DNA of 64,000 nt, from positions 111,172,620-111,236,619 of the forward strand of contig OW804098.1 of the NCBI GenBank assembly GCA_942159475.1, written 5' to 3'. The translations under genes were made by a program, and so were the position numbers. Source of the stretch: Sthenelais limicola. Its lineage: Eukaryota; Annelida; Polychaeta; Phyllodocida; Sigalionidae. The notes below the pieces were generated by a model. The model had not been told where the DNA came from and ran no database searches. It was given only the letters and a program-made list of their open reading frames with translations. Below, piece by piece: positions 32,401-63,710 of the stretch (positions are counted from its first letter, which is position 1; every line of letters starts with the position of its first letter).

Positions 32401-35400
32401 CTCCAGGCCAATCCCTTACATCAATCAAAATAAAAAACAATATTTACTGCTATAAACTGCAAGTTCATGGATTTCCAGTGGTTTATTTTGCATTGAAATC
32501 ATTTATAATTGGTTGTTAATGTGCATTTGCCCTTTCTGCAACTAAAGGTATTAGTATTAGGCCAGGAGATTCCTTGGGCCTGCGGCCCTAGGCATAGTCC
32601 ATGGGCCAGGGGGGTCATGAGTACCATCTCGGGGGACGGATTCTCACCTATCCACAAAAATAGAAGAGGTCATGGGCTTTCAAATGAGCTATGATACGCT
32701 TTTCAAATGAGTAGCTTATTGGCCACCAGGGGGCGCTGAAGGTGAATATTTTCAGTTTTTACCCCATTTATGGTTGAAATATTATCCGTACAGCTTCATG
32801 CATGTAAAACCAATTAAGCAATGTAACATTACCTATGGATTAATGTATAACTTATGTTGATAGCATTATTAACTGATTTTTAAAATTTTTTTGAATATTT
32901 AAAAAAAAGCGGTTTTGGAAAATTTCCTGTTTTTCCATAAAAACACTTGACTTTTTCAGCATGAAATATTTGATATATTGACAGGCATACATTCAATCAT
33001 TTATTAGGCATATTCAGCTAAAGGATGGAAAGCAAACAGCTTGTCTCTATTCGCAAAATCACCAGAGATACAAATATTTTACATAAACAAGCCAAAATCA
33101 TAGAACAGCGCTAAAATCAATGCATGTTCCATAGTCATCATTGTTTAAAAAAAGAGTTAATTTGATATTACCTGCAGTCTAGAGACTATTCTTCTTCCTC
33201 ATTCTCATCATCTGATGCATCTGTTATAGTTTCAAAAGCATCAGAACCTTGGTTACTACACGATTTTAGACTGCACATGTCAGTGCATGCCATGCCATTA
33301 TTAAGGCAAACACAGTCTGGAAGTGTGCATGTTCTTCTACATAAACATGCCAGCAGGGACAAAACTGCATTTGGTGCCAATGGTTCTCTCATTTCCCGAA
33401 TGAGGGCGCATTGGGCAGAGGCTGGAGGGGGTAGTGCTCCTGGTGCCACGCTCTCTCGGACACTCGACCTCACTCCAGCGTGGTCAGCCAGACGGACAGC
33501 TTCGAAAATTACCAGACTCCCGTCCTCATCCTACAGTTAGGAGAATAATCTCTCTTAAACTCAAGAATGGCTGGCATTGGAACTAGAACACGCGGGGCTC
33601 GGATTATTCTACCCGAGGAGCCACTCAGAAATGGTCGTAAGAAACCAGGCCCAAAGCCTAAAAAGACTCCGGCCAAAAAGACCGTTAACACGCCAAAGGC
33701 TAATGGCGGCCCTGGACACGAGGTTCCTCAACCGCCAGAACAGGACCAGCAACAGCAGGCCCCTCCGCCTGACAAGTCTCTGAACGAGAAACTTGACAGA
33801 CTACTAAACATCCTAGCAACAGAAAGAAGAATCCTAGAGGGCATTCACCACGACAGAATAAACTTCATAGACGATCAGGCCATCTCCCCCCAAAATCGTA
33901 GGCCACGTGACTTGACCGGTGGTCAGGCCTACCGACGCTCGGCGAGTCAACCCCCAAGACGGCCCGATGATGTCGACGGTCTCTACCCCAGGGAAGAGGC
34001 TCCCGAGTTCATCTCACCTGACGAACTGGCCTCTTCTCCGGTCACAGACAAGCACTACCAGAAGGCTCTAAAGGAGGTTACTCTTCAGATTGTCAAGAGA
34101 GGAGGTAAGGGATACTTCTCAGATAACGATAATGATGGGGCTAAGAGTGCTAGGGACCTTATTAAAAAGTTCCTTCCCCGCTCAGTAAAACTCAAGTTGA
34201 AAGACACAGACTATACTCTCTCAGTGCAGGAGCACATTACAGGCATCACGGGTCTGGCCCTGGATACAAAAGACCAAGCCAATATGAGAAGGATAGTCTC
34301 TCATGTAAAGGAGGTGGCCGAAGACGCCACAAAATATAACTGGGACCACGTGTCTGACTGGTCAATGACAATACTCGAGCTGATTGCAGAAGAGAGGATT
34401 GAATGGTCAGATGCAGCCTTCATAAAGGACGAGCGCATGAAACTCTCTTGGTCAGCATGTGCCCCAACCGACAGAGAGGAATCCCCCCCTCTCGCTCTGT
34501 GCAAGTTGTACAACAGGGGTGAATGTGAAAACAAGAAAACTCTACACAAGCAGGCAGGAAATACTGTGTACCACTACTGTGCCCTCTGTTATTTTGTGTT
34601 CGAGAAGCGCCTGTCCCACCCCGGGAAAAGATGCAACTCTCTCCGTGGCAAGGACCAAGCAACCACCCAAGGGGACCGTAAGGAGAAACCATGGCAGAAA
34701 GGCCAGAAAGGTGGCGGCAAACGTGACAAGCAGGCCGATCGAGACAAGTCTGCTGACGCGGAGTCAAAAAACGACTAGCTGCCCCTTACGGGCACCCCTC
34801 CCCCTCGGGCAAGCCAAGCCATGCGCCCGCTGTCTTGGAAGTGACACTCGCCACCAGTAATGCCCGAGGACCCCTTCACTCAGACGAAGAAACTAGGGTT
34901 GAAGTCTCCCCTAAAAACATAGTGGTTGAAGTTCCCCACTCACACCAGCATGGATTACCCAGGATTGATGTGACTCCTGATACACCTACAAAACACAGGA
35001 CTTATGATTTGGAAAGATTCTGGGTGCAAGACGCTATATCCGACCCGCTGGGGGCAGTGCCTTTAGGGGAGTTCAAACTCCCGCCCCTTGCGGGCCCCAC
35101 GTCTGACTGCGCGCCTACGTGCAGCCGTGACTCCCAGACCTCTCAACCAATCAGAGCCCCGCTGAATGTAAACACAGACAACCCCAGCCCTGCCACTGAA
35201 TGCACTCACCAGGACCCGTCTGTATACATAAACAAGTTCATCCAGCTGTCGAGAGCAGGGAATATCCCGCAGCTCGACTGCCTGTGTCTGATTTCCGACT
35301 TTAAAACTATGAACTGCATTCATATTGACTCAAACTCCAAGAATCATGCGGACTGGCCCACTAACACACCAGTTGGCACATACGCCCATGCATTCAACCC

Positions 35401-38400
35401 AGCAGCACGCTCTAGAACTCGTGCCTTCCCTGACTGGTGCGATCCACCCCCATCAGGGCCCCTGACCCGGATATACAACACTGTCAAAGCCTCTGGAAGG
35501 CATAACGTGCTCGGAGCATGCATCCAACTACCAACACAGCTCAATGTGAAGAACTGGAGAGCTATTGCAACGGGACACATAGAGGACTATTGGCTGCTGG
35601 AATGTCTACAATTCGGATTCCCACTCCAGTTTACAGGCCCCCCCCTAAGGGCCTCCCTCTCCCAGAACCACCACTCAGCAATAGCACATGCGACACACGT
35701 CTCAGCATACATCGACACTGAGGTAAGCAACAGTGCTCTGTTTGGTCCATTTGACTCTATACCTCTGACCCCATGGGCCCATGTGAGCCCCATGATGACC
35801 CGGGACAAAAGTGACCCTGGCCAGAAACGTATTATAGTCGACCTCTCATACCCACAAGGACTATCAGTCAATGATTATGTACCCAGGAACTCTGTATTTG
35901 GATGGAAGATATGCCACGCCCTCCCCACCGTAGCGATGGCAGTATCCATGATACAACAGGCTGGTTTCGCCGTCAAACTAGCCAGCATTGACATCCAGCG
36001 GGCATACAGGAATTTCCAGATATGCCCCCTTGACTGGCCACTACTACTCGTGTCACATAAAGAACAGTTCTTCATTGATCTGTCACTTCCATTTGGCACG
36101 AGAGCGTCCTCTATGTATATGCAAAAGTTGGCTAACTTCATCCTTCGCCATCTAGCAGAGGCAGGCATCTACGGCCTGTTCTACATAGATGACCTACTTC
36201 TCATACATAAACATTCCGATGACCCATATCTGCAATTCGCCACGGCCCATGCCACCTTCAGAAGGCTGGGCCTCCCTCTCAGCTATGGCAAACTGTGTGA
36301 CCCTGCAACGTCTATCACATGGCTAGGAGTTACGTTGGATATAACTACAAGGTCAACACATCCCACAGAAAAAGCTTTCTGCCCTCACACGGGATGTACG
36401 ACGTTTAATGACAAGGGACACTCTCTCTGAAAAGGAATTACAATGTCTGGCCGGGAGGGTGAATCACGTGTCCCAGGTCATAAAGCCTGCTCGTTTGTTT
36501 ATGTGCAGAATCCTCCATGCATATCGCACATCAATACAAACGAAGGCTCCAGTTAAAATCTCCAGGCAGGTCAAGGCCGACCTTGCTTGGATTGTGAACT
36601 TCGCCCCCAAGTGCAACAGCTGCACAATGGAGGTGCCTCCTCCCCCTTCAATAGTCATATATGCTGACTCCTGCCTGGAAGGGGGCGGGGCACACACCAC
36701 TCAAAACTACTATGCGATTCAATACACAAAGAAGACCACCGAAAGACACCACATCTCTCAACTCGAGGGCCTCAACTGCCTTGTGGCCCTGCGGGCCTTT
36801 ACAGCTGATGCCCCCCCGAGAACACATGTGGAAATCTGCTGCGACAATGAGAGTAGCATAATGGTCTTCCTGCGCAACAGAGGCCGAGACCAAGTCCTCA
36901 ACGCTATAGCGAGGGGGGCGTGGTTCTGGGCCCATAGCCGAGGGCTCCACATGTCTTTCACTCATGTCCCGGGGAAGGAAATGGTCCTTTCCGATGCACT
37001 CAGTAGATCATTTAAAGACAATTCACTCAAATCATTAGCTGCCTCCATGATAAAAGACCAGAATCTAACTGAGGTTAAAGTTTCAAACAAATGTTATGAC
37101 TACTCTCTATTCATGTAATTACAGAGCCATCTCACGACTTCCTCGCTAGTAGGGCCATGGCTAGACAAGACCTCTCCATCCGCCCAGGCTCAGCTGCTAA
37201 CAGGAGGCGCGCTCTGAAACTATTCATTGGTTTCTCGACACATTACGGCTATGACTACAGGACCCCTTCACAAGTCCAAGTGTGTGTGTTCATTGAGTAT
37301 CTGGCGTTATACTTCTCCTCTCCTGCCTCAATCGCAAATTATATTGCATCTGTGAAGGCATGTCTTGCTAGGCTTGGCGCCGACGTCTCTCCATTCGATG
37401 GCTTACGTGTCAAGGATGCCCTGACAGCCATCTCACTAACCATCCGCCATGTGCCTAGACAAGCACCCCCCATATCCACGGAGGATTTAATTAAAGTGCT
37501 TAAAGTCATCCACTGGGACTATGAAGGTCCAACGCTCAGATGTGCTATTATAATCATGTTCACAACTCTGATGCGCCAGTCTAACGTGGCCATAGGTCGT
37601 GGTGAATCATTCGACCGGTCCCGCCACCTGGTGAGAAAGGATGTTACTATCAACCCATCGGACATCACTATCTCCTATAAATGGGCCAAGAACCTCCAGA
37701 GGGCGGCAGATGCTGACTACTTCACCCTGCCGGCCCTCCCTGGTTCGATCCTCTGCCCAGTGCAGGCTGCTTATGCCATGATACGCCACCGCCCTTCCTG
37801 TTCGGGTGACGCCCCCCTCTTCATGCTGGATAATGGGGCGCCACTCTCAACTACTTATCTCACAACATCATGGCGCGCGGCTCTATTGGCGGCAGGTCTC
37901 CAGGATCATCATTATACCCTTCACTCGCTTCGCCGTGGCGGGGCTTGTGCTCTCCAAGAGCACATGACCGATGACCAGGTCCGATCCCACGGAAAATGGA
38001 AATCCACTGCCTATACTTCATACGTGCGAGATAAAACAGACAAAGCTGTTCACAAAGCCCTCAAGGCGATGTCAAAACCATATTGACATTAAACAACACT
38101 AACTTTGGAGGTTATAGTTTACCATCTTCTTTGAGAACTTTCATGTATATCTCGTTTTCAACTTACATGTCTTTTCATTTGTACCACCAGGTTACTTGCA
38201 AACTGATTATATTTCTCAAGAAATAAAACTGCTTCAAACAGCCACTCCACTTCTGCCTTCCGTCTCAATGGTTCTCTCATTTCCCGAATGAGGGCGCATT
38301 GGGCAGAGGCTGGAGGGGGTAGTGCTCCTGGTGCCACGCTCTCTCGGACACTCGACCTCACTCCAGCGTGGTCAGCCAGACGGACAGCTTCGAAAATTCC

Positions 38401-41400
38401 CACCCTCCCACACCAGGGAACAAGCTTTCAGCAGTTGAGCTTAATACATAAAGCGGTTACGGTTATAGTTTACCATCTTCTTTGAGAACTTTCATGTATA
38501 TCTCGTTTTCAACTTACATGTCTTTTCATTTGTACCACCAGGTTACTTGCAAACTGATTATATTTCTCAAGAAATAAAACTGCTTCAAACAGCCACTCCA
38601 CTTCTGCCTTCCGTCTCAATGGTCATTCCATCAATGATGCAAGCACAGGACTCTGGAATTTCATTGGCAGGAGATATCACCTTCAATAGATTTATACAGG
38701 GTTGATTTGTTGGTCTTTCTTGGACAACCATCAGGTGTAGCAAGTGCCCATGGAAGAGGTCCAAGTGGATATTCAAGAACCTCTGACATGAGAAGGTTGT
38801 GTCTTTGAGCAATAAGTATCATTGACGCAAACAACTTACAATCAGCTTTCAAAATTACCTCTCAATTGCCTACTTTAATGCCAGAAGATGATTTCATGAG
38901 GCTGGAAAATGTTTTGAGCTTTTGTCATGGTATTGTAGCATACAGGCTTTTCTCATGGGTGAACAATTGTTCTTTTTCAAATGCTTTGAAGGCTTGTTGT
39001 CCAATTTTGAAAGCACCCAACAAGTCTTCAGTCACCTTCTCTGGGGCCACCCTTCCAGTTGAGATTGAGATGAGATGATCATATTCACAACTGAATGGAT
39101 TTAGCCAATTGTTTTCAAGCATGTCCATCAAGGACAAAACAGCAGTCTCATCCTTCTCTATCCTTGGGAGATGCAGATCATGATGATCATTTCTGTTGCT
39201 GGTAAGATGGATTTGTCTGCGAAGAATCTTCACAAAAGATGTCCGATATTCAGCTGTCAGGTAGTATCGCTGTAACGTTCCAGCATTTGAGCTGAATCCT
39301 TTTGTACCACCTGGAGTTTGGGTATCTTTGTTAACGGTCTCTTCAACCGTTTGGTCAATAGGAATTTTCCCAAATGTATTCAAGTTGGACAGAAATACCT
39401 CCATTGAAAAGATATTCCTGCACACATGGATTGGTATCAGGAAGGGAGGACATTGTAGCATAGTAGACAGGCAAGTATCTGGCATAGTTCACATTCTCAT
39501 ATGCAAAGCACCAAGGGATCATTGCTTTAATAGAACTGAGGTGTAGATCCAAGTTGCCTTCCCTTGATGCTCTTATCATCATAAGAAGAGTACTGACCAT
39601 ATCTAGGTAACTCATCCAAAAGGATGCCATCACTCCCTTCTCATTTCTCATCTGATTGAGGAAAATACTGTGGAGAAAAAAGACTCTTGAAAGGATCTGT
39701 CCTCAGGAAAATCTCTTGGCTTTCCTGTGTAGGCAAATTCATAAACCAGGTTTTCTATTTCTGTTAATAGATGTTGCTCTATACTATGGTTACCATTTGA
39801 GTGCAATCATTGCACTCACTTTTGTGTTCACATAGCGCAATGATTGTGCAATGTGACCGCAATGGGTGTAACCACTTATTGCGCTATGGGACCGCAATAG
39901 CCATTGCGCAATGAAAACGCGACTGCAATAGAAGGTGCTATTTTTGCACTCAGAAATCTATTTTTAGCGCAGTGGGAGCATCATGGGCCAGGCTTCAGGG
40001 GGAGACGGGGGCGGTCAATTTCGCAGGGGGGACGGGGATGGTCAATTTCGCGGGGGTGAAAACGGAAAATATTAGCTTTAATTATGGTTCATTTATATCC
40101 AATATTATAATGTAATTACTGTACTGTATTGTACTTTAATAGCAGATCTTTGGATTCTGCTGGGGTTCTGGATACTTATAAATTACTGTTTGGACAGGAA
40201 GTGGTCAAACCGGAAAACGGATGAAGTAAATTATTGTTCGGATTCAGGGGTTTATTTTGCGGATGTAGATTTATTTTGCGGATGTAGTTAAAATAAACCC
40301 CAGTCGGCGTTTCCGCTCAATCAGTCACTTACCTCATCAACTAGTTGTTTGTCGCCTAAATATCACTCCCAATAGCTCCAAAATCACCGATAATGTTCCA
40401 AATATCACTGTAGAAGGATATTCCGCTTGCTGAATGGTGGTGAACAACGAAATAGGGAATAATCCGTTTGTCAATTCCTGCAAATCATCGTCATGTTCGC
40501 CGCAAGCGGCCATGACAGTTCCAGGTTCAGGGTTCAAGGTTGGGTCTTTACTAGAGTTTTTTGGTTGTTTTTCGTCGATTCCGCGTTCAGTTTGGAACGT
40601 GTATGAAGTCCTGGTCACATTAAAGTCATTCCTCCACTGTTTCCGATGGAAATATTAGCCATTTTAAAGTAAATACAGCCTAAGCCTCGCCATAACATGA
40701 CGACAGTAGACATCGTGCACGCCTCAGTTTGTTGACGTGTGGGTCACTTTCGAATGAAATCTTCCGTGCGCTATATAGACTACCATACACAATGCAACGC
40801 CAAGTCAACATGCACATGAGTGGCTATGCCGAAGGATCTCCACATCTCTTCCGGTCGCACGTATGGGTTCTGAAATCGCCATTCATTGAATACTTGATTC
40901 CCGTACACTAAATCTTCGCTATCGGGCTAAAACTATATTTAAATCATTTCTAGCGATTCAGATTTTTTATTTATCTCTTTTTCAAGTCCGTAGACACACG
41001 CAACACGGCACTCGTAAACCGGAAGTCTCTGATGCTTTGGATAGCAAGCAGCGGATCCTTACGAAAACAGCCCGGCTCGCTGAACATAAACATAAGTAAA
41101 TACCGACCTCTGATTGGCTGTTGTACCTGGATGTTCATTCTGCCAGCCGTCGCGTTACCATTTAGATTCCGACTAAAGCGTGCAAACTTGCGGGCGTGTA
41201 AACACATGGTTTCTCAACTCGCCATTCATTTATTACTTGATTTCCATAAAGGAAAACTTCGCTATCGGGCTAAAACAACATTTAAAACATTTCTACCGAT
41301 TCAAATCTTTTATTTATTTCTTTTTTAAGTCCCTAGAGACACGGATACGGCATTCGTAAACCGGAAGTCTGATGCTTGGTTGCATGCAAAAACTGGAAGC

Positions 41401-44400
41401 TTCGTTTGTTTCTGGAACGGAGAGTGCGGCTGACGTAAACGACATTGTGAAGTTATGATTACGTGTACATATGTGATATTGGTTAGAAAGAGGTAAAATA
41501 ATCTAAATATTAGAATGTGATGGGTTAAAATGTGTAAAACATCCTGATTTGGATGTTATGAAGGCTGCATTTGACTCGGTCCTTTCCATGTCAGACGTAA
41601 AAGAGTAACCCATGTGTTCGAGTGGAGGAGCTAAATTATTGGAATTCATCCTGCTGTAAGTACATCTACAACCTTTTTTGAAGCCTAATATTGGTTAATA
41701 TGTGTTTAAACAGTAGTATTGAATCCAAAAATCGGCTATTAAAGTGATTAATTCTCTCGATTTTGTGTCTTCGGCTTTTGCTTGAAAATAAACCCCTCGG
41801 CCCTCCGGGCCTCGGGGTTTATTTTCAAGCAAATGCCTCAGACACAAAATCTCGAGAAATTAATCACATAGTACTATGCTGTATGAAAAAGAGATGAGTT
41901 ATTATCGGCGAAATTGAAACAAGTGAAGACAAAATAATGGTTACATTAAACAGTTTATTCCTTTATTATTCAATACAGTTTACCTTTTTTTTATTCAATT
42001 CAAAATTGAATTAAAACTGAACCAACATTATGAGTAACAATAATCATTACAGTTATCCAAAATGAAAGAATTCATTATTTTTATCATAATACAATAATTG
42101 TCAATGAGAAGCATTTGTAAAAAATATCAAAAGTTGTGTCATGTTACATAACATGTTATAAGAATGAATATTCAGATGCCTCTGACACAGAAGACATTGG
42201 CTAGATGATATGGGAATCAGTACATCTTAAGGCAGGTGTTAAAATACCAATTCATTAAAGCTGGAAGATTTGCTCCATTCACCGATTCAAGATTTGCTCC
42301 ATTCACCGATCACCTGTAGCATTAATGACTTAGTCTCTATAGCAATCACTGATATTTAAACCCTGGAACTCATATAGAGTGCATATTTACATACATTCGA
42401 AGCAGAGATGAGCAGATCAGTAAAGATACATAATGATGGTGTACAGATAATACTAAAAGGTATTTCACTCCTTATATTTCACTGCACTCACATTAGTTTA
42501 CAGTTTACTCATTTATCATTCATTTCAAACTCCAGTCACATATTTATACACTACTTCCATTTTCATTTTACATAGATGTGGACAAACAGTTCTTCCCTCT
42601 GCGGAGCTGATCATCCAGGGATACTATAAACATTAGAAATACTGTAAACGTATTAATATTCGCGCAGTATTTATTTTTCGCGATTTTCGCCAACACCCTT
42701 ATGTGCGCGAAAATAAATCCTGCGCAAAAGGTATAATTATTGCATAAACAAGGCGTGAGGCTTTCTTGCTGTGTGAATTTAAATCCATGCGAAACAGTGT
42801 CAAAGTACTTAGTGCACGAAAATTTATCCGCGCGAAAATAAATACGTTTACAGTACACAAACAACAATGCTCATAGAGCGAGTGGAAAGAGAATTCATCT
42901 AAACACAGCTGACAACGACATTGTTACAGGGTGTTATAAAAATGATAACGATAACAAACTGGTCCTTTCATGGGTCTTCCAAATATGCCTTACAAATAAT
43001 AACTTTTAAATTGGTGATATTATTCTTTTCCTTAACAATTTAGATTTTGGTTTTTAAATATTGTAGCATCTACTTACTGTACTGTAAGATACGCTTAACA
43101 ACGTCCATCCAGTTAATATACATTTAAAGACTGGCCGATTACTTTGACTTTATATCATCACAGATATGTCTATGTACCTTGTATTTACCCAGAAACTTTA
43201 TGCTATAACGTGTTGTGCTAAACAGCTATACAGCTTAGCCAGTCTTAACATTTAAAATTGGACGGAATCATAATAGCTACAGAGATGTAGAATGAGGCAT
43301 ACTCATGAATGTGACATAACTTATTGCATTTTCTTTAGCTTCTCATAAAGCGTTCACATGGAACAGGGAGGAGGTGGCGGAGAGGGAATGGGGTGGAGGA
43401 GGGGGTGGAGAAGGGAGGAGGAGCAGTGGGGGCTGGGTAGGTAGATGAATGGGAGAAGAGGGAAAGGTAGGAGTACATGAGGAGTAGGGAGAGGGGGAGG
43501 AGAATGCTACATGTTCCACTCTAGAACTAATCACCTGTGCTCCAAGAGAGGCTTTGTGAATATATATATATCAGTTCCTCATAATTACATCAATAATCAC
43601 ACAATTATAATATATACAAATTAGATGTGGAGGTTAGGTGATGTGAGGTCCACAGATCATGATCATGTCCGCATAATGATGTGAGGTACTAAGTTGCTAG
43701 TGTCATTCTCCTTCAATGGATTTTGAATGATTTTTAGGTTTGATTAAGAGGTAACAATTGCTTTATCATGTCTTGACACCGTCCTCTGACATCATGAATC
43801 ATATTGCTGTTTAGCGTCAAAGTTCCTGAAATGATAAGAACATGAACAGTGTGTGAAATTAACTTTCATCTATTATTTATACAGATGTATGCCTTATACA
43901 TACATATAAATTATACATACATTTATGATAATTGAGTATTTATACTTATTCATACACATGTATACGAATATCATAATTGTATACATTTACTAATTGTATG
44001 TATCAATTCCTTATGCAATACTCCTTATCTCTTCTACATTTTAGGATGATACAAATATTGTTTCAGTCGATTTTCTTAATCGTTGCTGTCAACTCAAAAT
44101 ACTAATCTTTAAATATTCAAAAACGTCATAATTATGGGACGATAAATTACGTTAATGTATAGAGATTTCCTATAAAATAAGGTAGTAAATTGGCAGGTAA
44201 ATGACCATTTTTCTTCCTGGTACTGAGATAAATTACTAAAGTTAATAATAGTAATAGTTTAGATGACAGAATTCAACGATTAATAATAAGTAGGCCTAAA
44301 TGAAAAATTCCTCAATACAATGACACAGTGATTTGGCGCGCTGTGTAGATTATGCATGAATCACATTGAGGCCAGGTGACAACAGTTTGCGAAACATGTG

Positions 44401-47400
44401 TCTACATAAGTTTGTTCTGATTTAATGACCAAATATACGAAACGCTCCCAACCAAAAGGATAGTGCATCTTCTAAGGACTGTGGAGAATTTTTAAAATCC
44501 ATTCATTATTGATCTCAATATAGACCATTTCATCCCCCCTCCGCTACAAAAAGGCCCAACCTCTCTCTCTCTTTCTCTTCTCTCACTCCCTCTTTCTCTT
44601 ATATTATTCTACCCCCTGTTCCTTATACATGTTAATCACCGTGATTACCCCAACCACCCACCTGCCCACACTCAAAAACCAATTCATATGCTTAATGATA
44701 TTAGAATGAGACACTATGGTTAACCAGCGGTATGTTACTTTTTTTTCTTCATAAATTCAAATAAATTCCATTTTCTAGAATACCTTAAAACAACCAAGTG
44801 GACAATGTATGAGACATTAAAAGTTAACTTTTTAGACACAACGATTTCTTAGTTAGGCCCTGATTAATTTATGGAAAAACATCAAATAAATAATCATATA
44901 TTTAAGGAATTGCGAACGATGTATTTGTCTAAAGGTTATCACCAATGTGTTGCCTCTGATACCACCCTTACCAAAGATGGGGCTGTGTGCCATCATACAT
45001 AGACATGGCAAGGAGTTTCTGCTCTTTGATTAATATCAAGATTTATTCGGATCAGACCAATTTAAGCGAGGAGTTAATGCTTTCTTAGCCAGTACATGGT
45101 CGAGGTCCCATGACGAAACACCAGAAAAGACCCCACACACTTAGTAGAGTTAGTATTGTGTAGACAACTCGAACATGGTCCGGTACAAAAACAGTCACCA
45201 TAAATTTAAAAATACCAATGCACCAAGCCAGAAAGAAAGTGCACCTTCTAACGATTGTGGACAAGTTTTAATTTTTAAAATCCATTAATTATTGACATCA
45301 ATGCAGACCATTTTAACACCCCTCCACTAGGCCTACAGAAAAAGCCCCAAGCACTTTGAGTAGACCGGCCGGGCTCCCTCTGAGGCAGGGCCAGCTGCGG
45401 ACAATGTTAATAATGACAATATGGTGGCCGTAACCAGTGGTGCTATATGGAGTAAGGCAAATAGTACATACTTGTAGGTATTATAGTGTACCACACTGGG
45501 ATCTTTTTTCTATTAATTAACATGCAATAAAATCGTTGTGAAGTGGGTAATTCAGCATCTCTTCTCTAATTGATGCATGTTGTGATTCCCATTGATCACA
45601 AGACTTGTCCCCCGCTCATTATTACGTTGCATAGGCCTAATGTTGGATAGATTTATGAAACGACCTCCAGTTTAGCACCCACTCAAAATAAAATGAAAAC
45701 AAAATTCACATTCCCAGCAAGAAATAACTCCCCCCAAAAAAATCTCCCATGCTACTCCTTTATGCAATTCCTAATTTCTGAAAGGAGTAGGCCTAAATAA
45801 CATCACGTTTTTTCACGGCCACCATACCTGGTCTAGCCTTTTTTTTACATGGCCGCCATTGTTTATATTGGGTTGCATAATGTTGCATAGCTTTAAAACA
45901 AAGAAACTAGGGTTATTACAAACAAGTAGTTCCTACAAATGAGCCAATCAATCCCTGTCCTGTTAATATAAAGGATGAATAACGTTAGAGTATATACAAT
46001 GTTCCTTACCTGGTGGTATTTTGGGAGAATCCAACTTGATGCGTAGTAAGGAGAGCGATGGTCGCCGCATTGTTTGTTCATTAAACAATAGCCTAGGCTC
46101 GCAGTAAAGGCTACCACACATCACACACAGGCTTTACGCTAGGTGGCGCATTGGTCACCCACATTGGTCACACCACAGCCTTTTTTAGGTGACCGTTCCT
46201 CAATATTTAGTTATATATATATAATGGTAGGTAATGAAAACAAGTAGTGCCTTGAGCCGGCAAGAAAACTCCTTTATTAAATAAGAAGCAAAAAAATTTC
46301 AATCGACTGGTACGGTGAAGTCCACTACAGCAAGTGACTGGTCAGCACAACGGTGCCGGTACTTTAATATTGATCCACCAGGTGGCGGTACCGTATACAG
46401 ACAATTATAGGCACATTCCCTATCGGTAATATGAACATATATAATATATTCACAAAAAATATGGGAAAGAATTGGCCTCACATCAGTGTATTCTAATGAT
46501 AATATAAAATGATCCTCCTTGTATTATCAGAGTCCTGGTAGTGATTTGAAGGCGCGACAGAAGTACAGATGTTTTAAGAATAAATGTCAAAATTCTGATT
46601 TCGAGGGAGCTATGAGCAATCAAGTGCATTTAGTATTGGGGGGTAGGGACGATGTATGTGTAGGTATCTTTCGATAAAACTAAAGGTTATTAGCCTATGA
46701 TGTTTATGAACTCCTGAATTCATTGAAGTGATGTTGGAATGTTTTATGTCGCGTTACAACATGTACGTTAAATCTCATACATAAAATAAAATATATTTTA
46801 TTGCAACTTCGCTGCAACTTGCAAATTCTGATGATTATTTAGGCCTGCCTGATTGTGGTAAAAGATATAGATATGATTCAGTACTGCTGTTGTTAAATTG
46901 AGGTGAGCTGGTATAATAATGTCACCCTTACGCCATGGCGTTGCCATTGCGCCATAATTATTACAGATAAAGAGACCCTGCTATTTAAACACAGTATTGG
47001 TATAGTAATAAATTTGATACCTTTACAAAATCAAGTCAAACTTCTGGTGAGGACCAAGCCTTCTTTTGCCGGACAATATCTACTTTCTAGCTCTTACTTT
47101 TCATTTAATTTTGCTAGCCAAATTAGTAAGTAATGTACCCCAATCATACACTAAATCGTTTGATTAATGAGGTGTAATATGGGCGAAATAAGGCAAAATA
47201 ATAGGGAAAATATAGGTATCTGAAGCATAGGTGTAGGAATCAAAATAATTATCACAGCCTTCCCAAACTGCGTCTGCATTATACTAATATCCCTTGCTAT
47301 TTGTACAGCAAAGATTGTAAATATTGAACACATTTTTTTTTTCTAAAAGAATGGCCTCCTGAAATCAAATGCTGCCCGTTTGGGAGAATTACTCATATAT

Positions 47401-50400
47401 AGTGTCTGTGCGATGATCAAGAAAAAAGGTAGAAGACATAAGTCTATAATGACATTACCATTACACCTTTGAGTGGTTATATATGTAGCTATGTAAAACA
47501 GATTTTTTAAACAAAATCACAGATAGTTTTTGTGATACATGCCGAAAATTGTAGACCAATTATTTCCACAGCAGGGGTTTAGCGCTGTAGAAATATGTTA
47601 TATAGTGTCTGTGCGACGATCAAGAAAAAAGGTAGAAGAATTGGGTCTATAATAATGTTACCTTCAGAGAATTGAGTGCACATATGTAGCTATGTAAAAC
47701 AGTTTTTTTAAAAAAAAAAATCTTGAATACAGTCTGAGATAAACGCCAAAACATTTAGATTAATTCTTTCCGCAAAACACTGCCTGGCACTGACGGGGGT
47801 CAGTTTAGTGGTGCACACAACACGGCACAGTGCAGTTGGGTGGAGTGAAAAGGCACAAACCAGTCTTCTGAACAACTATTTTTTAACACATTCAGAACAG
47901 GTCCTATTTAGAACCATTGATATGGCTTACAATTGCTACGAATGAATTGATCATAATATAAAAATCTGATCAAACCCATGCAGTGACTTCTTTTTATGAT
48001 TTCATCTTAACATTGTAATATTTTTGTGAGCCAAAGATCAGGCTTTTTTGTGAATAGTCCACACTATGGGTTTACTATAGCGCTTCAATCTTCCAGCATC
48101 TGTAACAATCTGCTGCAGAGGGGCCACAATACCTCCAAAATCCGGCTGGAACTCCCTATAGTAGGAAGCAAAGCCAAGAAATTGTCTAACCTCTTTAGCA
48201 GTCTTAGGGACAGGCCATTCCTGGACTTTCTTGATTTTAGCCGGATCCGCCCGGATCCCGTCACCAGAAACGATTCTGCCCAGATACTTCACTTCCCTGC
48301 GAAAGAACTCGCATTTCTTGGGTTTGAGCTTCAGCCCATACTCCCGAATACGTTCAAGCACCAACTTAAGGTTGTCCGCGCATTCCTGGACGGTTTTTCC
48401 AAAAACGACCACGTCATCCAGGTAAACCAAACAGGACTTCCAACGCAGTCCGTCCAACATACGGTCCATCTTGCGTTGGAAAGTGGCAGGGGCGTTACAC
48501 AGTCCAAAGGCCATCACCTTAAACTGGAACTGGATAAGAAAGCAGTTTTGTGCTTACTGCCCTCATCCATTGCAACCTGCCAATATCTGGACTCCAAATC
48601 CAATGTGCAAAACCACTGGTCCCCACCCAGGGCTTCAACACACTCATCAATACGGGGTAGGGGAAAGCTGTCCTTCTTAGTTACCGAATTTAGCTGTCTG
48701 TAGTCCACACAGAACCTCTGGGTTCCGTCTTTCTTAGCCACCATAACAATGGGAGCTCCCCACGGACTACTACTATGCTCAATCCGTCCTTCCTTGTACA
48801 TTTTCCAGATTTCCCCCTCTGCTCCCTCCCGCCTAGCCACTGGTAACCTGCGATAGGCTTGTTTGACAGGGATTGCATCCCCAGTGTCAACCACGTGCGT
48901 AACCAAATGAGTACACCCCACTTTGGTACCAGGCAAGGAGAAACATTCTTGGAAATCATAGAGCAGTTTTCGAACTAACTCCTTTTCTTCCTTCTTGGAC
49001 AGGTGAGCTTCCCTCAACAACTTATCCAACGGATTTTCGGCACAAGCTGGAACAACTATTTCCGGAGCGAGAAGCTCATCATCCGCCACTGGGGAATCCA
49101 TCACTTGAACGGAATTGATGATAGCAGTTCTCACTCTTTCATCAACTTCTTACCAACGCCCACCTGAGCAACACCCCCAGTTCCTATACTACTAGCAGAA
49201 TCCGTCCGAGCTGTAGTACTATGAAGCGGTGTCCCATCATCGACCCCCATCTCGCTTCTTACAAGGGTCGGCTGGGGTTTTCCGAGTCCGGATTGGAGGC
49301 GGGAACCTCCGCAGACTTCAGAAGCCCCTGGAAGACCTTGCTCTTAGGACAGCCAGCTGCCATATGGCCTTCAAGTCCACAGAGCCAACACTTGTCGTTT
49401 CCAGTCCTCCATACTCTACGAGAACCAAATTTCCCAGAGTATCTCTTCCTATCATCTCCAGCTCTTCCCTTGCTGTAGTCCGTCTTAGCCCTCCGGTCTT
49501 TCCAGGCCTGCAGAGCCTGTACAATCATGGTAGAGACGTCTTCACAAGAGTCAGGGGAAGACGCATCAGCATCTTCCAAAGCCTCCGTAAGCTGAGCTAC
49601 TGCTGAGCCAGATTTCCGTCGAGACCTAGAAACCTTTTTCCCCGTGGCATGTTCCACTATCGGTACCGGAGGAGGAAGCAGAGCAGGAACAGGTGTGGCT
49701 TCAATTTCTTGAATCACCACCCGTGAACCTGAATCCATCAAACAACCCTCGTACACTTCAGCCAAATGCAAGGCTTCTTGCAAATCGAGAGGTTCTTTGA
49801 AACGGACCCATGTAGCCATTTCCGGATCGCTTAACCCTTTGAGGAAAATTCGAAGGGCCATGTCTCTTAATGTGCCGTCCGTTTTAACTCCATGAGCATA
49901 ACGGCCCCTTTTCGCTACCTCATTCGCAAAATGACGGGGAGTTTCTTGCACTTGCTGCCTGCAGTTCCAAAATTCGGCCTGCTTTTTGCTGCGAGAGCTT
50001 TCCCCAAAGTTTGTGTCCATATGGGCAACAAACTTCTTTAGTGTCAAGTCATCGGGTAAGTCCCCCATGTCGGCTAGCTGTCTTTTACACCCACACTGCA
50101 ACTGAATCAAAAATTCATCTGCAGCCCAATTGTAGGCGCCCGCTACTACCTTCATCTCGGCAAGATAAACTCGCCACGGATCCTTCTGATCCCACGGTTT
50201 GATGATTGGCAGTCTCCCTGTCTGATGTTGTCTACCCACCCTGGGGGAGTAATCAAACAAATCATCTGAGTCCTCAGACCCATCAAAACTCATTTCCTGC
50301 ACAAGAGAATGATCTTTGCGTGTGATCTCGTCACGTCTTGCTCTTCTTGCTTTTTTCTTTTTCTTCCTTTCCGCTTTTGCAGCGTCAGAGGATTCAGAAC

Positions 50401-53400
50401 TAGAGGAATCACTAGAGGGATCTGACGGATCACCTGCACCACCTGTCGCAACTCCCTTCCTTGGCGACTTGGACTTCTTAGGTGACTTTGTCTTCCTAAG
50501 TGTCTTGGTTTTCTTAGGGACATATACATCCCCCTCAATCCGTCCTCTATCAAAATCCCCCGTACCAGTAGATTTTTCTTCCCCAGTATTTCTACTAGAG
50601 GTCTCACTAGTCTGGCTCCCAACTGAACTCAGAGAAGCCCTAGTCTTTTCAAAAACCACTGATTTCATAGGAGTCTGAGTCGGACAACTCCTTGATGCAG
50701 GAACAATCCGTCTCGTCTCCGGAACAGTCCGCACTGTATCCAACATGGTCTGGGTACCAAAACTATCAGTCACAGGGGAGGAGGTGGACATAACAGAACT
50801 TTGATGCTCTTGAAATGTTACCCTCTTGGTTGTATCCCCGGCCGGACCCACTGGTGAAGCAAAGAAATCCAAGGATGGATCCCTATGCCTATAGCCAGCA
50901 CGTCCCTCTGCAAAGGTGGAACACCCGGGTGCAGTCTTACTCAGATCAAGCGGCTGGCACTGCTTGGAAAGAGTCTCTGCCAAATTAAGGAGTGGATGCA
51001 GCTCAAAATCAGTTTGTGTCTGAACTGATTCTTCCACACCAGTAATCTGCAAACGAGAATAATCATCCATTCTCGTGACCTCACACCTTAACTTCTCGTT
51101 CTCTGCTTCGAGTCTATCCGTATACTTGGAGGAACGAGCAGTTACCACATCCAGGGTTTCTTGCAGATCCTGGTTTTGAAAAACTAGTTGTGTCACTTCA
51201 GACACAAAATCATGGCATTTATTCTTCTCTGCCTGTAAATCACGTTTAGTTTCGCATCAACTGCAAACGGATGGTACTTAACAAACTCTGATCATCAGAA
51301 TCTGTATCAGCTCGCTTTTCCCGGTAGTTGGTCCAGGTACCCTGATTATCTTCCCTTCCGGTCTGATAATCCTCTGAATCCGACACACCAGTCCCTACAT
51401 CTATAAGGCGGTCTACTGCCTAATCGGCCAAAGGCGCCACACCTCTCGGTCTCACATACCCAGGCGGGGCACGCAAGTCCGGAGCTGGGTCCGGGTACAC
51501 AGCAGCCATAATACCACTTTTAGCAAAAGGGCAAAACAGCACAAAATCACGGATTGTGAAAATCCGGCCAACCAGGGAGTTGATCTAGATCAAAGGTCAA
51601 GAGCTGGTCACGGCACCAATTGTAGTGAATTCGCTCTCTCGACGCTTCCAATAAACAAAAGTCAACAAATAGGCTACCTGCTACTTTCTGGTTTATTGTC
51701 CGGATCAACGGCCCTCCTACAAAACCCCAGTGCTAGGGTAGTCACATTCTTATGTAAGGCACAACAGGTGTCATATGATGTACATACAGTATAAAGAGGA
51801 CAAGCGTGTCCGTACATATAAGAGACTTTACTCTACAGTAAGTTGGTATAAGAATAGGTAGAAGGAATGACAATGTTATAATGAGAACTGGGTAATATAA
51901 GGGAGAATATGAATTACATTATAAGAAACCGGCCCCAGTGCGTGGGACACCTCTGGTGTAAACTAAGCACACCAGCTCTTTATGAACTGGTTGCACCTGG
52001 GGGATTGTAAAGCCACTACAATACTATTGAAGGGTAATGCAAAGTCACCCTCTATGCTCCTCCCCCCCCCCCCCCACTGCAACCTAACCCCCCACCCCCC
52101 ACCCCCAAGTAAAAATTACCCCCCACCCTCACCCCAAATATTTTATCTGCCTCTCTGTGAATACACTATCCTAGATTATGTCGCACATTTAAAGTTTAAC
52201 ACTTGTCAATGCCCCACTTCGTTCCCCTATACTCATGGGTGTCTCGCATTGTTTTCACACAGTTAATAGCTAAGGTGAAACTTAAACACAGGTTATTCTG
52301 TAGTCACAATTGTTAGTAAGTCAAACAATTGTTAATAAGCAATGATTGAGTAATGGTTTGGGAGGGTTGAAAATGTAAAAGGTGTTTTGACAGAAGGTAT
52401 ATTGCTTGAATAAGGCAGAGCTATGTATACATATACATAGCTCTGATTAAGGCTAATGTTTTTTATCATAGTAAATAATCAGTAGAGCCTGTTTTAAAAC
52501 TGGCCACTATATTACTGCAATATATATGCAATGACCATTGCGCAATGGTAGCGCAATAAAAATACACTGGCATTGCAGTCGGAATTCTTGTATAAAAATA
52601 TTGTCAATAATTTAATGGGAAAAGATCCTTTAGCGATCTAAATAATAATAATAATATAATGATAATAGATTTTTATTTCCATATTACATTTACAACAATT
52701 GTCATACAAAGTAGTTTTAAAAGAGAGAAACCTATGGAAAGAGGAATAATAAATGTAACTTGTTGATTGTTGTAGAATGTAATATAGCAAAGGAATAAGA
52801 TAATGCAATGCCAGTGCAATGGTATTGCACTGCCATTGCACTCAACTAGAGACTTGACTGCAATAGGGGTGCAATGCTATTGCATTCATATTGCATTGCA
52901 CTCCATTGCACTCGTATTGCATTCGCCATTGCACTCCATTGCACTCAGTGCCCATAGGGTAGTTCTTACCCATCCATGTCTGGAACTCTTTCCATAGAAT
53001 TCGTTGGAAGGCCTCAAATAACAACTTATGTGTTCTCACTGCCCTTTTGTAGCACTGACCTTCCGTCACCTTTGTGACTGAACCTTTTGCAACAATTCCA
53101 GATCCAATGCACAAATCCCGGAAACCAGCATCCTGAAACCGCTTACCAATTATTCCCATCATAACACAAAGTGTGTGGATTGTTCCCAGCCTTTGGACTA
53201 TGCCACGAAACCTTTCCTGCTGCTTTAATTGAACTTCTAACACCTTTGCATACAAGGCTTGGTCAAAAACTGCAACTAAATTTTTCAGATTCAAGGTTTC
53301 CATAATTTTCTTGGACTGCAGGATCTCTTGGGCTGTGTTCATAGTAGTTGCTAGAGAGTTTGTTGTAGGAAGGTAACCCACTTCATCCTGCATGATATGT

Positions 53401-56400
53401 GGGTCAGATTGTCAGAAAATGTACAATTCACTTTCACAAATTCTCTGAAATAACCCAATTTACAGACGAAAAAAAAGCTCAAAATACAGATCAACCTAAC
53501 CAAACAGATTGCTAGAGTCAATGCAATGCCAAATATAGTCAAATTTACCTAGCATTGACCAAATTGCAGTCTAATTTAGTAGAATTTACTAAATATGTAC
53601 AGCTGCCAATTGTACATTTTCTGAAGATCTGACCCATGTACATTGTTTCTTGTAATGATATTGAAACCAGTCCACCCACTGATAGTTTGGTCCTGTTGTT
53701 TATGGACCCTTGCCAAAATCCAGGTTAGGTTCTTTTCCTGGGCTTCTGATTCAACCATTGAAACCATTGAATGGTAATACTGCCCCAACACTGGAAAAGC
53801 TCTCCATTTTTTGAATGCATAGCGCAGTGTCAATCTCTCTGAGCTGAGTGTATGATGTACTGTGGCCTAACCTGTTTATGTAAAATATTTGTATCTCTGG
53901 TGATTTTGGGAATAGAGACAAGCTGTTTGCTTTCCATCATTTAGCAGAATATGCCTTATAAATAATTTAATGTATGCCTGGCAATATATCAAATATTTCA
54001 TGCTGAAAAAATGAAGTGGATATATGGAAAAACAGGAAATTTTCCAAAACTGCTTTTTTTTAAATATTCAAAAAATCATGAAAAATTAAGTTAATAATGT
54101 TATCATCATATATTATACATCAATCAATAGGTAATGTTACACTGCTTAATTGGTTTTACATGCATGAAGCTGTACGGATAATATTTCAACCATAAATGGG
54201 GTAAAAACCGAAAATATTCACATTCAGCGCCCCCTGGTGGCCAATAAGCTACTCATTTGAAAAGCGTATCATAGCTCATTTGAAAGCCCATGGCCCCTTC
54301 TATTTTTTGGGATAGGTGAGAATCCGTCCCCCGAGATGGTACTAATATCCAAAATTTGAGGCCCACGGACATTGCTGCTCGGCCAAAACATAGACCAAAC
54401 TAATATGCCTGCTGCGCAATTGGGTAGTGAAGTGGGAAGGGGCAGTTGGAGAGATTTGGGTATGGGGACGTCCATCACAGATCGTGGGCAACATACATGC
54501 TTGCGGCATGATAGCTACATGTTGCGGCCATGGCTATAATTTTGAGAAATGAGTTGATTTTACTGAAAATGTTGATTTGGCTAACTCACTTGTTATCATT
54601 AAATTAGGTATGAGTAACCAAGTATATTTTGTTCTACATACAGTGATTTGATTACAGAAAAATATAATGTACTTTGGTAATACATTAGATAATGGAATGA
54701 TTATGTTTGTAATGGCATGTTGCAGGCTTTTGGCATAGACGGGAGCATCACCATCATAACCAAGGACCCAGCCTTCCAGAATATCATTGGACAAGCCGAG
54801 GGACTTAGTTTCGCTGACATCAAACTAGCAAATCTAATGTATGATTGTGCAGGTGATTGGTTTATGTCACTCTCAATGCTATAGCCTTAACCGCAGTCAG
54901 TTCTAGGGTGACCTGGAAGACCTGTTTGCCTTTAAGCCACTAGGGACTGCTTTATTGAAATTAGTCAATGGGGGTCGTGCATTAACTTAGCTTAACTTAA
55001 TTAAAATATATTGATATTATTAAAATTATTGTTGATCATTCGGGTCAGATTGTCAGGAAATGCATAATCTACAGTCCTACACATCTCTCAAATTCTTCTA
55101 AATTCGAGTCATAAATGTATGATGAACACTGAATATATATTCTGTATCATATCCATTCAATAAATCTGTCTGGTTATGTTGACATATATTTTAAACCTGA
55201 TTTTCGTTTTAAATTTGGATTATTTGAGGGGATTGGTGAAGGCCAATTGTACATTTTCTGAAGGCTTGACCCATTTAAGTAACCATGGTATATTAACAGG
55301 AAATTGCGGAACACAAACATGTCCTGGTGAGGGGTATATGGCTATTGACTGCAAGTGCTATTGTCCAAGCAACCCAGTTGTGGTAAATGATTTTACTCTC
55401 TTTTCTCCTTTTTCTGTGATTGAGATTTCTTCATTTCTTTTAATTAATCATTTATACTTCTTGATTCTGTACATAAATGTAATGTGACAGCCTCTGAAAT
55501 TCTAAGCTGTCAAGAACAGGAGTATATCTCTGGGAATCAACAGTAACGTCACATATATTGTCAATAGTCAGGCAGCTTAATGCCAGATTTGAGATGGATG
55601 TGGACGTTCCGGACAAAAGCACCAAATTTGATCCACAAGCTGTCCATTGCCTTACCCAGGTAACAAATTGACGTTAACTTAACGGTGATTTAAACCACAT
55701 TTTAGAGCAACTATACGTCAATCGTTAACGTTAATCTTGACGTGAATGTGTTTACCCTTTCTTTTCCCACATGTTTCTGTGTGTATTTAATAGTTTATAA
55801 ATAGATAGATGGAGCCTTGCTGGGCCTAGCTGGGATGTAATCATGTGAATGTTTATTTAAGGGCTTAGTGAATGCCACCAACGGCCACTGCTAGACTGTA
55901 GACTTACAGGCTTGGTGGGCAGAGTGGGCTCTACCATCAGATAGTTATGTCTTCTGCCTCACATGTAATCAATATCTTCCTGTATTTTCCCGCCTGTAGC
56001 ATCCTCATCCATAACCGTTTTCTCTACTAAGAAAATTAAACAAAAGGTTTAGGCGTCAGGGTCACGGGTTAGACATGGTAAAATCATGAGAACGATTTTA
56101 TGATTATCAGTAAGTATTTTTGATTATCTTTAGACAGAATTCCTTATATATATAAGAAACTTTATTTCCATTTTGTTATACAGACAGTGATAACAGTTTT
56201 CTACATGGAAATCGGTTTTTGTTCTCTGTCCCAGACAAATTTCATTCCACTTTGGAGGGCTATGTGTCCTTGCAGTTTTTTGGACCAGGACTTACACACC
56301 TGCTTTTGGTTGCCCACCTATACACAAATAAGTGTGTAGTACAGTAAACAATTGACAAAATATAAATAGATATAAGTAAATAAAAAGAGTACAGGAAACG

Positions 56401-61110: not shown

Positions 61111-63340
61111 TGTTTTAAAGATATTTAATCAGAAGAGTGAAATTATGCAATTATACAATATTCTCATTTGTGGCTGATGTGAGTGAAAAATTTTACAAAA
61201 ACACATTCATTACAACAAAAGGAAAATTTATAATATATTATCCATAGCCAAAAAAAAGGCATTAATCAGGAAAAAAAGAGAGACACATATAAAAACCATC
61301 ACCCGGGCAATATCCTATTACTACAATCTGAGGAGATTCGAAAATGTTTATCGTAGACAATATACACAAAATCAAAGAGAAATGCTAAAAAATCCTGGCA
61401 GGTATGAAGGAAAGGGCATTCAAAAACACAGATCAAGTCATCTCATGAAAAATAAAACAAGAGGAAATAGATATTATACCTTAATCACAGAAGGTCTTCA
61501 TGTTCTGGGATTACCCTGATATTCTGACTATTCAGAGAAAGCACCTGTAAATATTTTTTTTATTTGTTTTTTAAAAAAAGGTCTGATCATCTGCAAGGGA
61601 AAGCAAATTCCAGAATCTTAGAATTCTTCCAAAGAGGCTTTTTCTATTTTTTTCCTTCTGCAATGGCACTATTATTAGTCTATTTGCTCTCATCTATTGT
61701 AATCATGATGTGGGACATTTTCATCAAAGTTATAACAATTCCAGAAAATCGCAAAAAAACGTTGCATTCGCTTATAACATAGGGGTATAAACCATATCTC
61801 TGATGCAGTTCAATATTATTTATTTTGTAGGCTCCCTTTCTTGTTCTAACCCCCATACATAGTCTAAGGCAGCTGTTTTGTATAATCTGTAGCCTGTTTA
61901 GATCATTCTGACAACCTAAGTCCATTGTGAGGGAACTTGATTCAAGGACGGGAAGAATGAATGTTTTATAAATCAAAACAGCAATATCACATCAAATAAA
62001 ATGCCTTATTCAGGCCAATCGTTTAAACATCAAATGAGCTCGTGTACAGACATTATTGATGTGATAGGTCATTGTTAACCAACTGTCCAGAGAATATTCC
62101 AGATACCTAAAATTTTGAACAATTTCAACCTGAGTACCATCATTATAAATAATATAATCTGTGGGGTTCTTTTTGCATGTACCATTAAAGATTTGTAATT
62201 TTGTTTTGGCAGGGTTGATAGTCAAACAATTTTTCTCTGTCCATGTCTTCAATTTATTCACATCATCCTGAACAGCAGGACACATTTTATACCATGTAAT
62301 AAAACGCAATCATCTGCATAGAGTAATATTTTACCAACAAAGTTAACAGCATCTACATCATTTATATAAATGACTAGCAAAGTACCCGTCCTCCGGATGG
62401 TCAACCTCCCTCCCCATACTTCCCTCTCTCCCTTGTTTCCCTCCCCCTCTTCTCTCTCTCTTTTATACCTGTTTTTCTCTCCCAAACCCATCTCTGATTC
62501 CCCCCACTGTCTCCCTCCCCTCTTCCTCATGCTCCCCCACCCCTCTCTCCCTTCCCCTACATCCTCTCCCTCACCTCTTTCCTCCTGTTCTTTCCCCCCC
62601 TCGATCTCCTTCTCCTATTCCCCCACCCCCCTTTCCTTAACTCTATCCCTCCTACACCCTCTCCATCCCCTCCCTCTCTCCAATAACCCAACCCTCTCAC
62701 TTCCCTCTTCTTCACTCTCCCACTCCTCTGCATGTAGTTAGGTCCCCTGAAACGTTGTGGGAAATGATGTAGTGTCTCACAGGGGCTTTCCCAGGCTATA
62801 CCTCTTTTTGTAGAAACGCTCTAGCCATATATCATATGGATAAATAAAAGTTGTCCTAAAATACTGCCTTGGGCCACAACAGCAGGAAGTAATAATCTAT
62901 CTGACATGAATCCATTTATGCAAATTAGCTGTTCCCTATTTTTAGGAAATTAGCAGGGGTATCAATTTAGGACCAAAGCCCAATCTCTGCAGTTTATACA
63001 TCAAGATGTTTATGTTATTTGAATTAAAAGCTTTGGAGATATGAAAATAAGTAGCAACAGTATCTATATGTTTGTCCTTGTTCTCAATCACAGTCCTTAT
63101 GAATTCATAAATTGCAGTATCCACGCTTTTACCTTCTCTGAAACCATGTTGAGATGGTAAAAGAATATACCTGTCTAGGACTTCCGGTTGACTGAGAGAG
63201 TACCTAAACGTGTTGGAGCACTGCTCCATACTAATTCTCTTCTTTTTCAGATCCTGCCTTTGTTTTGGCTTCGGCCCACCGGGTATAAAGAAACATTTAT
63301 ACACAAAGACTCTGTACAAGCAAAAGATTGTTGAGAACAA
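61111..63340 (-). pseudogene. Decayed LINE (non-LTR retrotransposon) reverse transcriptase and 3' end
   Basis: Read on the minus strand from 63260: LPSQHGFREGKSVDTAIYEF, FHISKAFNSNNINILMYKLQ (the usual D-x-S-K-A-F-D box, both Asp lost), VAQGSILGQLLF, a SINE-like insertion, then VIYINDVDAVNF and LLYADDCVLL (catalytic Y-A-DD), LTINPAKTKLQIFNG, and, after a frame change, MIYKTFILPVLESS and LQIIQNSCLRLCMG. 61111-61560 is the probable 3' UTR. Loss of catalytic residues and several stops make it inactive. It lies in the astacin 3' region, presumably in the next intron. Confidence 0.85.
62372..62839. mobile_element. 468-bp SINE-like insertion in the LINE, ATAAAT target duplication
   Basis: Bracketed by ATAAAT at 62366-62371 and 62840-62845. 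It starts GACTAGCAAAGTACCCGTCC, holds a ~330-bp C/T-rich microsatellite (62405-62735) and ends with a unique part containing GAAACGTTGTGGGAAATG. It interrupts the LINE frame between LGQLLF and VIYIND. No coding capacity; the long open + frame across the CT tract is an artefact. Confidence 0.65.
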
Positions 63341-63710
63341 TAACGGATTATCTGAGTAGGGACATTTTAATTCTTCCCGCCTTGCAGGAAGATGACCCAG
63401 TCAGGTCGGACTGATTATCGCCCACTAGGACTGTATTGAATGAACTGTTTGAAGCTGAGCACCATAGGCAGTAAGGATAAACCAATGTAGGAAGTGTTTA
63501 AGCCATTCTGAACAATTCAAGAACTTTATTCTATGTGGATTAACGTCAAAACAAGTGCCAATACAAAAAGATTAATGTACTTTTGATCGTCACAAGCGTT
63601 GCCATTCAGAGGTGCCATCTGGTGGATACAAATTCTAAACCACGCTACACTAGACAGTAAGAAAGCGGTGGCGCCACCTATTGAAAATTGGCAGTGCTAA
63701 CCCTAGTATC
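63341..63710. other. Non-coding stretch before the terminal open frame
   Basis: Nothing coding. It could be a retroelement leader or LTR in view of the frame that follows, but no terminal repeats can be checked. Contains GTGGCGCCACC at 63668-63678. Confidence 0.35.

Follow-up and report, generated by a model that had tools for sequence, protein, structure and literature searches.

Inverted repeats and gene fragments at the locus

We analysed a 64,000-nucleotide stretch of the Sthenelais limicola genome (the window; C5:111172620-111236619 in an assembly of 1.13 Gb), in which two long inverted repeats, or arms, enclose the minus-strand remains of a gene whose full-length relatives end in a Cys-rich CXC tail. 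Very probably, the region 32595-54371 is a dead, heavily interrupted terminal inverted repeat (TIR) transposon with a transposase gene, belonging to the AcademX lineage of the Academ superfamily. An earlier reading made from the letters of this DNA alone (the sequence-only reading) had reported long inverted repeats around a gene, and these are real: we re-found them independently as ungapped inverted arms (32617-32934/54029-54346, 88%; 32876-33089/53873-54086, 92%), and in a gapped alignment the right arm (C5:111226496-111226962) matched the left arm at 93% across the whole 466 bp. The arms lay where that reading had drawn them; the outer ends did not, the true ends being about 25-28 bp farther out, at 32595 and about 54371. 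AGTACC was rejected as the end of the repeat because eight other copies stay similar past it, by a further 25 bp at one end and 35 bp at the other, and diverge at TAGTCC. For the 13-mer at the 32595 end, about one match with at most 2 mismatches is expected by chance per window. No target duplication is visible at this copy, with GCA to the left and TTG or TGC to the right, depending on where the mutated right end is placed.

The gene had been described as a single minus-strand gene lying about 100 bp and about 40 bp from the arms. The strand was correct and the spacing holds roughly for this decayed copy, though not beyond it; the single gene is in fact a row of fragments, in order and all on the minus strand, and most of the 21.7 kb consists of later insertions (Table 1). 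Gene pieces were placed by tblastn against a full-length relative, P0001, and by this comparison the window copy lacks residues 136-219, which include the first catalytic Asp, and 791-1155.

Table 1. Parts of the transposon and sequences inserted into it (window positions).
Feature	Position	Strand	Remark
Outer terminus TAGTCCATGGGCCAGGGGGGTCATG	32595..32619	+	shared with sister copies; exact 13-mer at site
Long inverted-repeat arm, CXC-tail side	32620..33085	+	
CXC tail fragment, P0001 1156-1224	33207..33401	-	tblastn; open frame 33186-33530
DDE-domain end with catalytic-Glu motif, to mid protein, P0001 548-790	38670..39398	-	tblastn
Helical insertion of DDE domain, P0001 450-550	39382..39684	-	tblastn
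Second catalytic Asp fragment, VFDQALYAK, P0001 260-408	52971..53411	-	tblastn
Gene fragment, P0001 220-263	53639..53755	-	tblastn
N-terminal gene fragment, P0001 96-135	53766..53888	-	tblastn
Long inverted-repeat arm, N-terminal side	53873..54343	-	
Outer terminus, degenerate TGTCCGTGGGCCTCAAATTTTGGATATT; sister copies TAGTCCATGGGCCAGGGCCTCAAATTTTG[C/G]ATATT	54344..54371	-	
Tyrosine-recombinase (Ngaro/PAT-like) retrotransposon, near-complete, foreign to transposon	33385..38616	+	absent from sister copy L026
Later insertion, 13.2 kb, foreign to transposon	39792..52961	.	absent from sister copy L026
MITE-like insertion, 235 bp, foreign to transposon	53401..53635	.	absent from sister copy L026

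Sister copies, termini and target duplication

A 20-mer of the arm, taken from the sequence-only reading, has 31 exact matches in the genome (15 forward, 16 reverse; reversed control: 0). Besides the window's own two, these form eight inverted pairs (L009-L016), spaced 4.05-4.95 kb, and 13 unpaired matches. All eight pairs contain the gene, as do six of the 12 unpaired loci that were fetched (L017-L028; gene matches at arm loci counted at E 1e-4). A search with the 466-bp arm returned 45 matches. Out of 120 gene matches genome-wide, the first 16 were compared with 40 of these arm matches, and 14 of them lie within 7 kb of one, a zone that makes up 0.05% of the genome. The 16 are not 16 independent insertions, since one is the window copy and another the segmental duplicate of it. 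Gene matches at C2:101917843 and C9:67940841 have no arm nearby. The sequence-only reading had made the association of repeats and gene depend on whether arm copies bracket the gene in inverted orientation at a spacing of 3-5 kb, the target duplication being constant; this search bore it out, and the repeats belong to the gene.

Copies on different chromosomes are alike out to TAGTCCATGGGCCAGGG...CCCTGGCCCATGGACTA and different beyond. A 3-bp direct repeat flanks six of the eight paired copies (CAT, ATT, GAT, TAG, TTA and CGG), and an exact one is missing at L011 (ATA/AGA) and L016 (GAA/AAA, with a mutated end). When the two copies of a second lineage, described below, are counted as well, the 3-bp duplication is found in 8/10 copies vs. 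2/90 in a control in which the left flank of one copy was matched with the right flank of another. Duplications of 2, 4 or 5 bp were rejected (1/10, 0/10 and 0/10 copies, respectively). L014 sits within a tandem array whose other units keep the site undivided, and the middle 30 bases of its joined flanks occur six times. At the level of sequence, these copies demonstrate a mobile unit whose ends are defined and whose 3-bp duplication is constant, as expected of a TIR DNA transposon.

All eight paired sister copies lack a segment equal to P0001 903-1119, and with it the EEAD, EDTD and GCD motifs; the deletion junction is the same in each, small differences aside, and the reading frames are broken in all of them (L012 and L015 were examined in detail). 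From the common loss of this nuclease half, the shared junction and the broken frames, we therefore take the eight to be a single deletion derivative that multiplied, presumably as a non-autonomous element mobilised with transposase supplied in trans. L009 and L010 are 99.86% identical, and the spread of the window's family was therefore probably recent.

The encoded protein and its other lineages

Full-length relatives are predicted to combine a DDE (RNase H-fold) domain, a FEN1/XPG-type flap nuclease and the CXC tail. The sequence-only reading had proposed looking for an RNase H-like or other nuclease fold in the conserved core and left open whether the gene was the transposase or a cargo. 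The predicted fold of the core is indeed RNase H-like, with D, D and E conserved in the relatives; the gene would therefore be the transposase, and the cargo option falls. Residues 716-1085 have a predicted fold like that of FEN1/EXO1/XPG nucleases with a matching pattern of acidic residues, at 10-15% identity, and here the nuclease forms one protein with a transposase domain. Among solved structures the best matches to the predicted DDE core are P element, the nearest, and hAT (Hermes) transposases, whose DDE cores likewise carry a large helical insertion, at an identity of about 10%. Foldseek with the DDE region gave no match at E below 1. A Foldseek search against viral models listed mostly FEN/XRN-type nucleases. 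A profile search with A1 against the sequences of solved structures gave no match up to E 10, NCBIfam gave weak matches only, far under the cut-off, and Pfam gave no domain above cut-off in the gene pieces or the relatives scanned. DUF6589 (PF20231) weakly resembles the DDE region (best E 5.3e-6; best score 25.8 bits vs. a cut-off of 27), and its precomputed listing includes two of the 120 relative proteins listed (P0078 and P0092). It was rejected as a firm link and is kept as a lead only, because it stays under the cut-off in all proteins scanned and matches one of the 18 members of A1 at E 0.01; it may be a related transposase core. The database names of the relatives, among them proteins of amphioxus, grouper, clam, whelk, sea anemone and sea spider, read "uncharacterized" or "hypothetical", and in a few cases Tesmin/TSO1-like CXC. 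Among viral contigs (53 pattern hits) and prokaryote contigs (24), none was confirmed as a relative.

The same genome holds a second lineage (C1:78961313 and C2:122649361), 33% identical over a 187-residue query. Its two copies are 99.6% identical over 10,022 bp that they have in common; both are bounded by TAGTCCAGGGGCTGG inverted repeats and measure 10,492 and 10,371 bp, with duplications TTA and AAT; the arms of copy A pair over 1,044 bp at 95%, and copy B lacks about 125 bp of one arm. In their frames the CXC tail occurs together with the catalytic-Glu motif and two nuclease motifs, DTD and GSD. A stop codon falls between the last two frames, and the DNI, F/MDQ and EEAD patterns gave no match there. 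A third lineage (29% identity) has an open frame of 1327 residues in which every motif can be read by eye; one terminus was read, ending ...CATGGCCTA. Many more lineages of CXC-tail genes are present at 21-51% identity with open frames of up to 1643 residues, several of them with repeated scores suggesting near-identical copies; two pairs were inspected, and these lineages are likely to be other elements of the same superfamily.

In the mechanism that we propose, the DDE domain would cut at the TAGTCC...GGACTA ends, as its predicted fold and conserved D, D and E suggest, and would join the cut ends to target DNA, where a stagger of 3 bp would leave the duplication seen in the copies. The FEN1/XPG-type nuclease would probably trim flaps or the non-transferred strand at ends or gaps, and the CXC tail probably binds DNA.

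Placement in Academ and competing explanations

The nuclease of AcademX is reported to be of XPG type (Kojima 2020; Repbase), the type predicted here in the relatives. Our literature search found no paper, among those available to it, containing both the words Academ and XPG. According to PMC10045372, AcademX has duplications of 3 or 4 bp and AcademH of 9 or 10 bp, a difference related there to the encoded nuclease or helicase, and our elements share with AcademX the TIRs, DDE transposase, 3-bp duplication and nuclease. The duplication was seen over two lineages although the window copy itself shows none, and the DDE domain was recognised in relatives, the window copy being without the stretch of the first Asp. 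The nuclease motifs are partial in lineage 2 and complete, by eye, in lineage 3. Half of the nuclease is missing in the window's own family; no difference from AcademX was established. Placed by these features, the transposon fits a new family inside the already known superfamily Academ, and the earlier description of it as undescribed is not supported, as a DDE transposase with a nuclease and a 3-bp duplication is what the known AcademX lineage has. AcademH, of the same superfamily, was rejected on the 3-bp duplication and because the Pfam matches of eight relatives include no helicase domain. P and hAT transposases make 8-bp duplications and are not known to carry a FEN nuclease; the P element superfamily was rejected on its 8-bp duplication, since in none of the 10 copies does the duplication reach even 4 or 5 bp.

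Some observations weigh against this placement. The closest solved fold is that of the P element, and the whelk relatives sit uneasily with PMC10294476, which reports that Academ has expanded in bivalves but is nearly missing from the remaining molluscs. These would suit a separate DDE superfamily of TIR transposons, one other than Academ that independently fused to a FEN/XPG nuclease, which we nevertheless consider very improbable: the duplication length and the nuclease, reportedly of XPG type in that lineage, agree with AcademX, and the curated bivalve Academ elements of the same source, with a mean of 5565 bp, are of similar size. It is likewise very unlikely that the multicopy CXC-tail protein is a DDE transposase with a flap nuclease from a superfamily distinct from Academ with DUF6589 as its catalytic core. 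Against the link between repeats and gene, no gene match was found at E 1e-4 at the remaining six of the 12 unpaired arm loci (L018, L021, L023, L024, L025 and L027). Arms that never flank the gene were what the sequence-only reading had named as evidence against itself, and these loci supply it in part; yet an unrelated repeat adjoining the gene by chance is almost certainly the wrong explanation, given that every paired set of arms encloses the gene and that gene matches crowd within 7 kb of an arm far beyond the share expected from so small a zone.

The names given to the relatives and the lack of any Pfam domain above cut-off would allow the gene to be a cargo or host gene on a transposon moved by another transposase. 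This is extremely unlikely: no other open frame in the eight paired elements exceeds 123 residues, the gene recurs in the TIR elements of the 33%-identical lineage, whose terminus is similar and which also make a 3-bp duplication, and its core has the predicted DDE fold with the conserved D, D and E. The "uncharacterized" and "hypothetical" CXC-tail genes listed in the animals named above are most likely transposases, and multicopy "gene families" of this type in annotated animal genomes should therefore be treated as mobile DNA. An uncharacterised protein family of several animals thereby gains an identity, and in the present genome, where copies from two lineages or more are recent, one could test what a flap nuclease does when it is fused to a DDE transposase.

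Later insertions and neighbouring sequence

The Ngaro/PAT-like element (33365-38623) interrupts the CXC tail and has split direct repeats in the order A1-ORFs-B1-A2-B2 (repeat A1 33365-33521, B1 38110-38272, A2 38253-38409, B2 38461-38623), with a reverse transcriptase (RT) frame and a recombinase frame, the Pfam match of the latter being under the cut-off. Within the 13.2-kb insertion lie a Gypsy-like RT and a gag-like remnant (48038-51256, minus strand), the gag Pfam match again being under the cut-off. The 235-bp MITE-like insertion has the ends GGGTCAGAT...ATCTGACCC and a 4-bp duplication, ATGT. The flanking DNA of the window copy and of its neighbour at C5:111147403-111163569 is 97% alike on both sides, and we therefore read the two as a segmental duplication and not as separate insertions, the neighbour being free of all three inserted sequences; the duplication covers at least 31107-55292 of the window and about C5:111145.9-111165 kb, some 58 kb upstream, at 97%. 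Elsewhere in the window, inverted repeat arms of 173 bp (23905-24077/24264-24436) are 99% complementary with a spacing of 186 bp, and a fragment at 62942-63400 (minus strand) resembles a non-LTR reverse transcriptase, as judged by eye from its frame.
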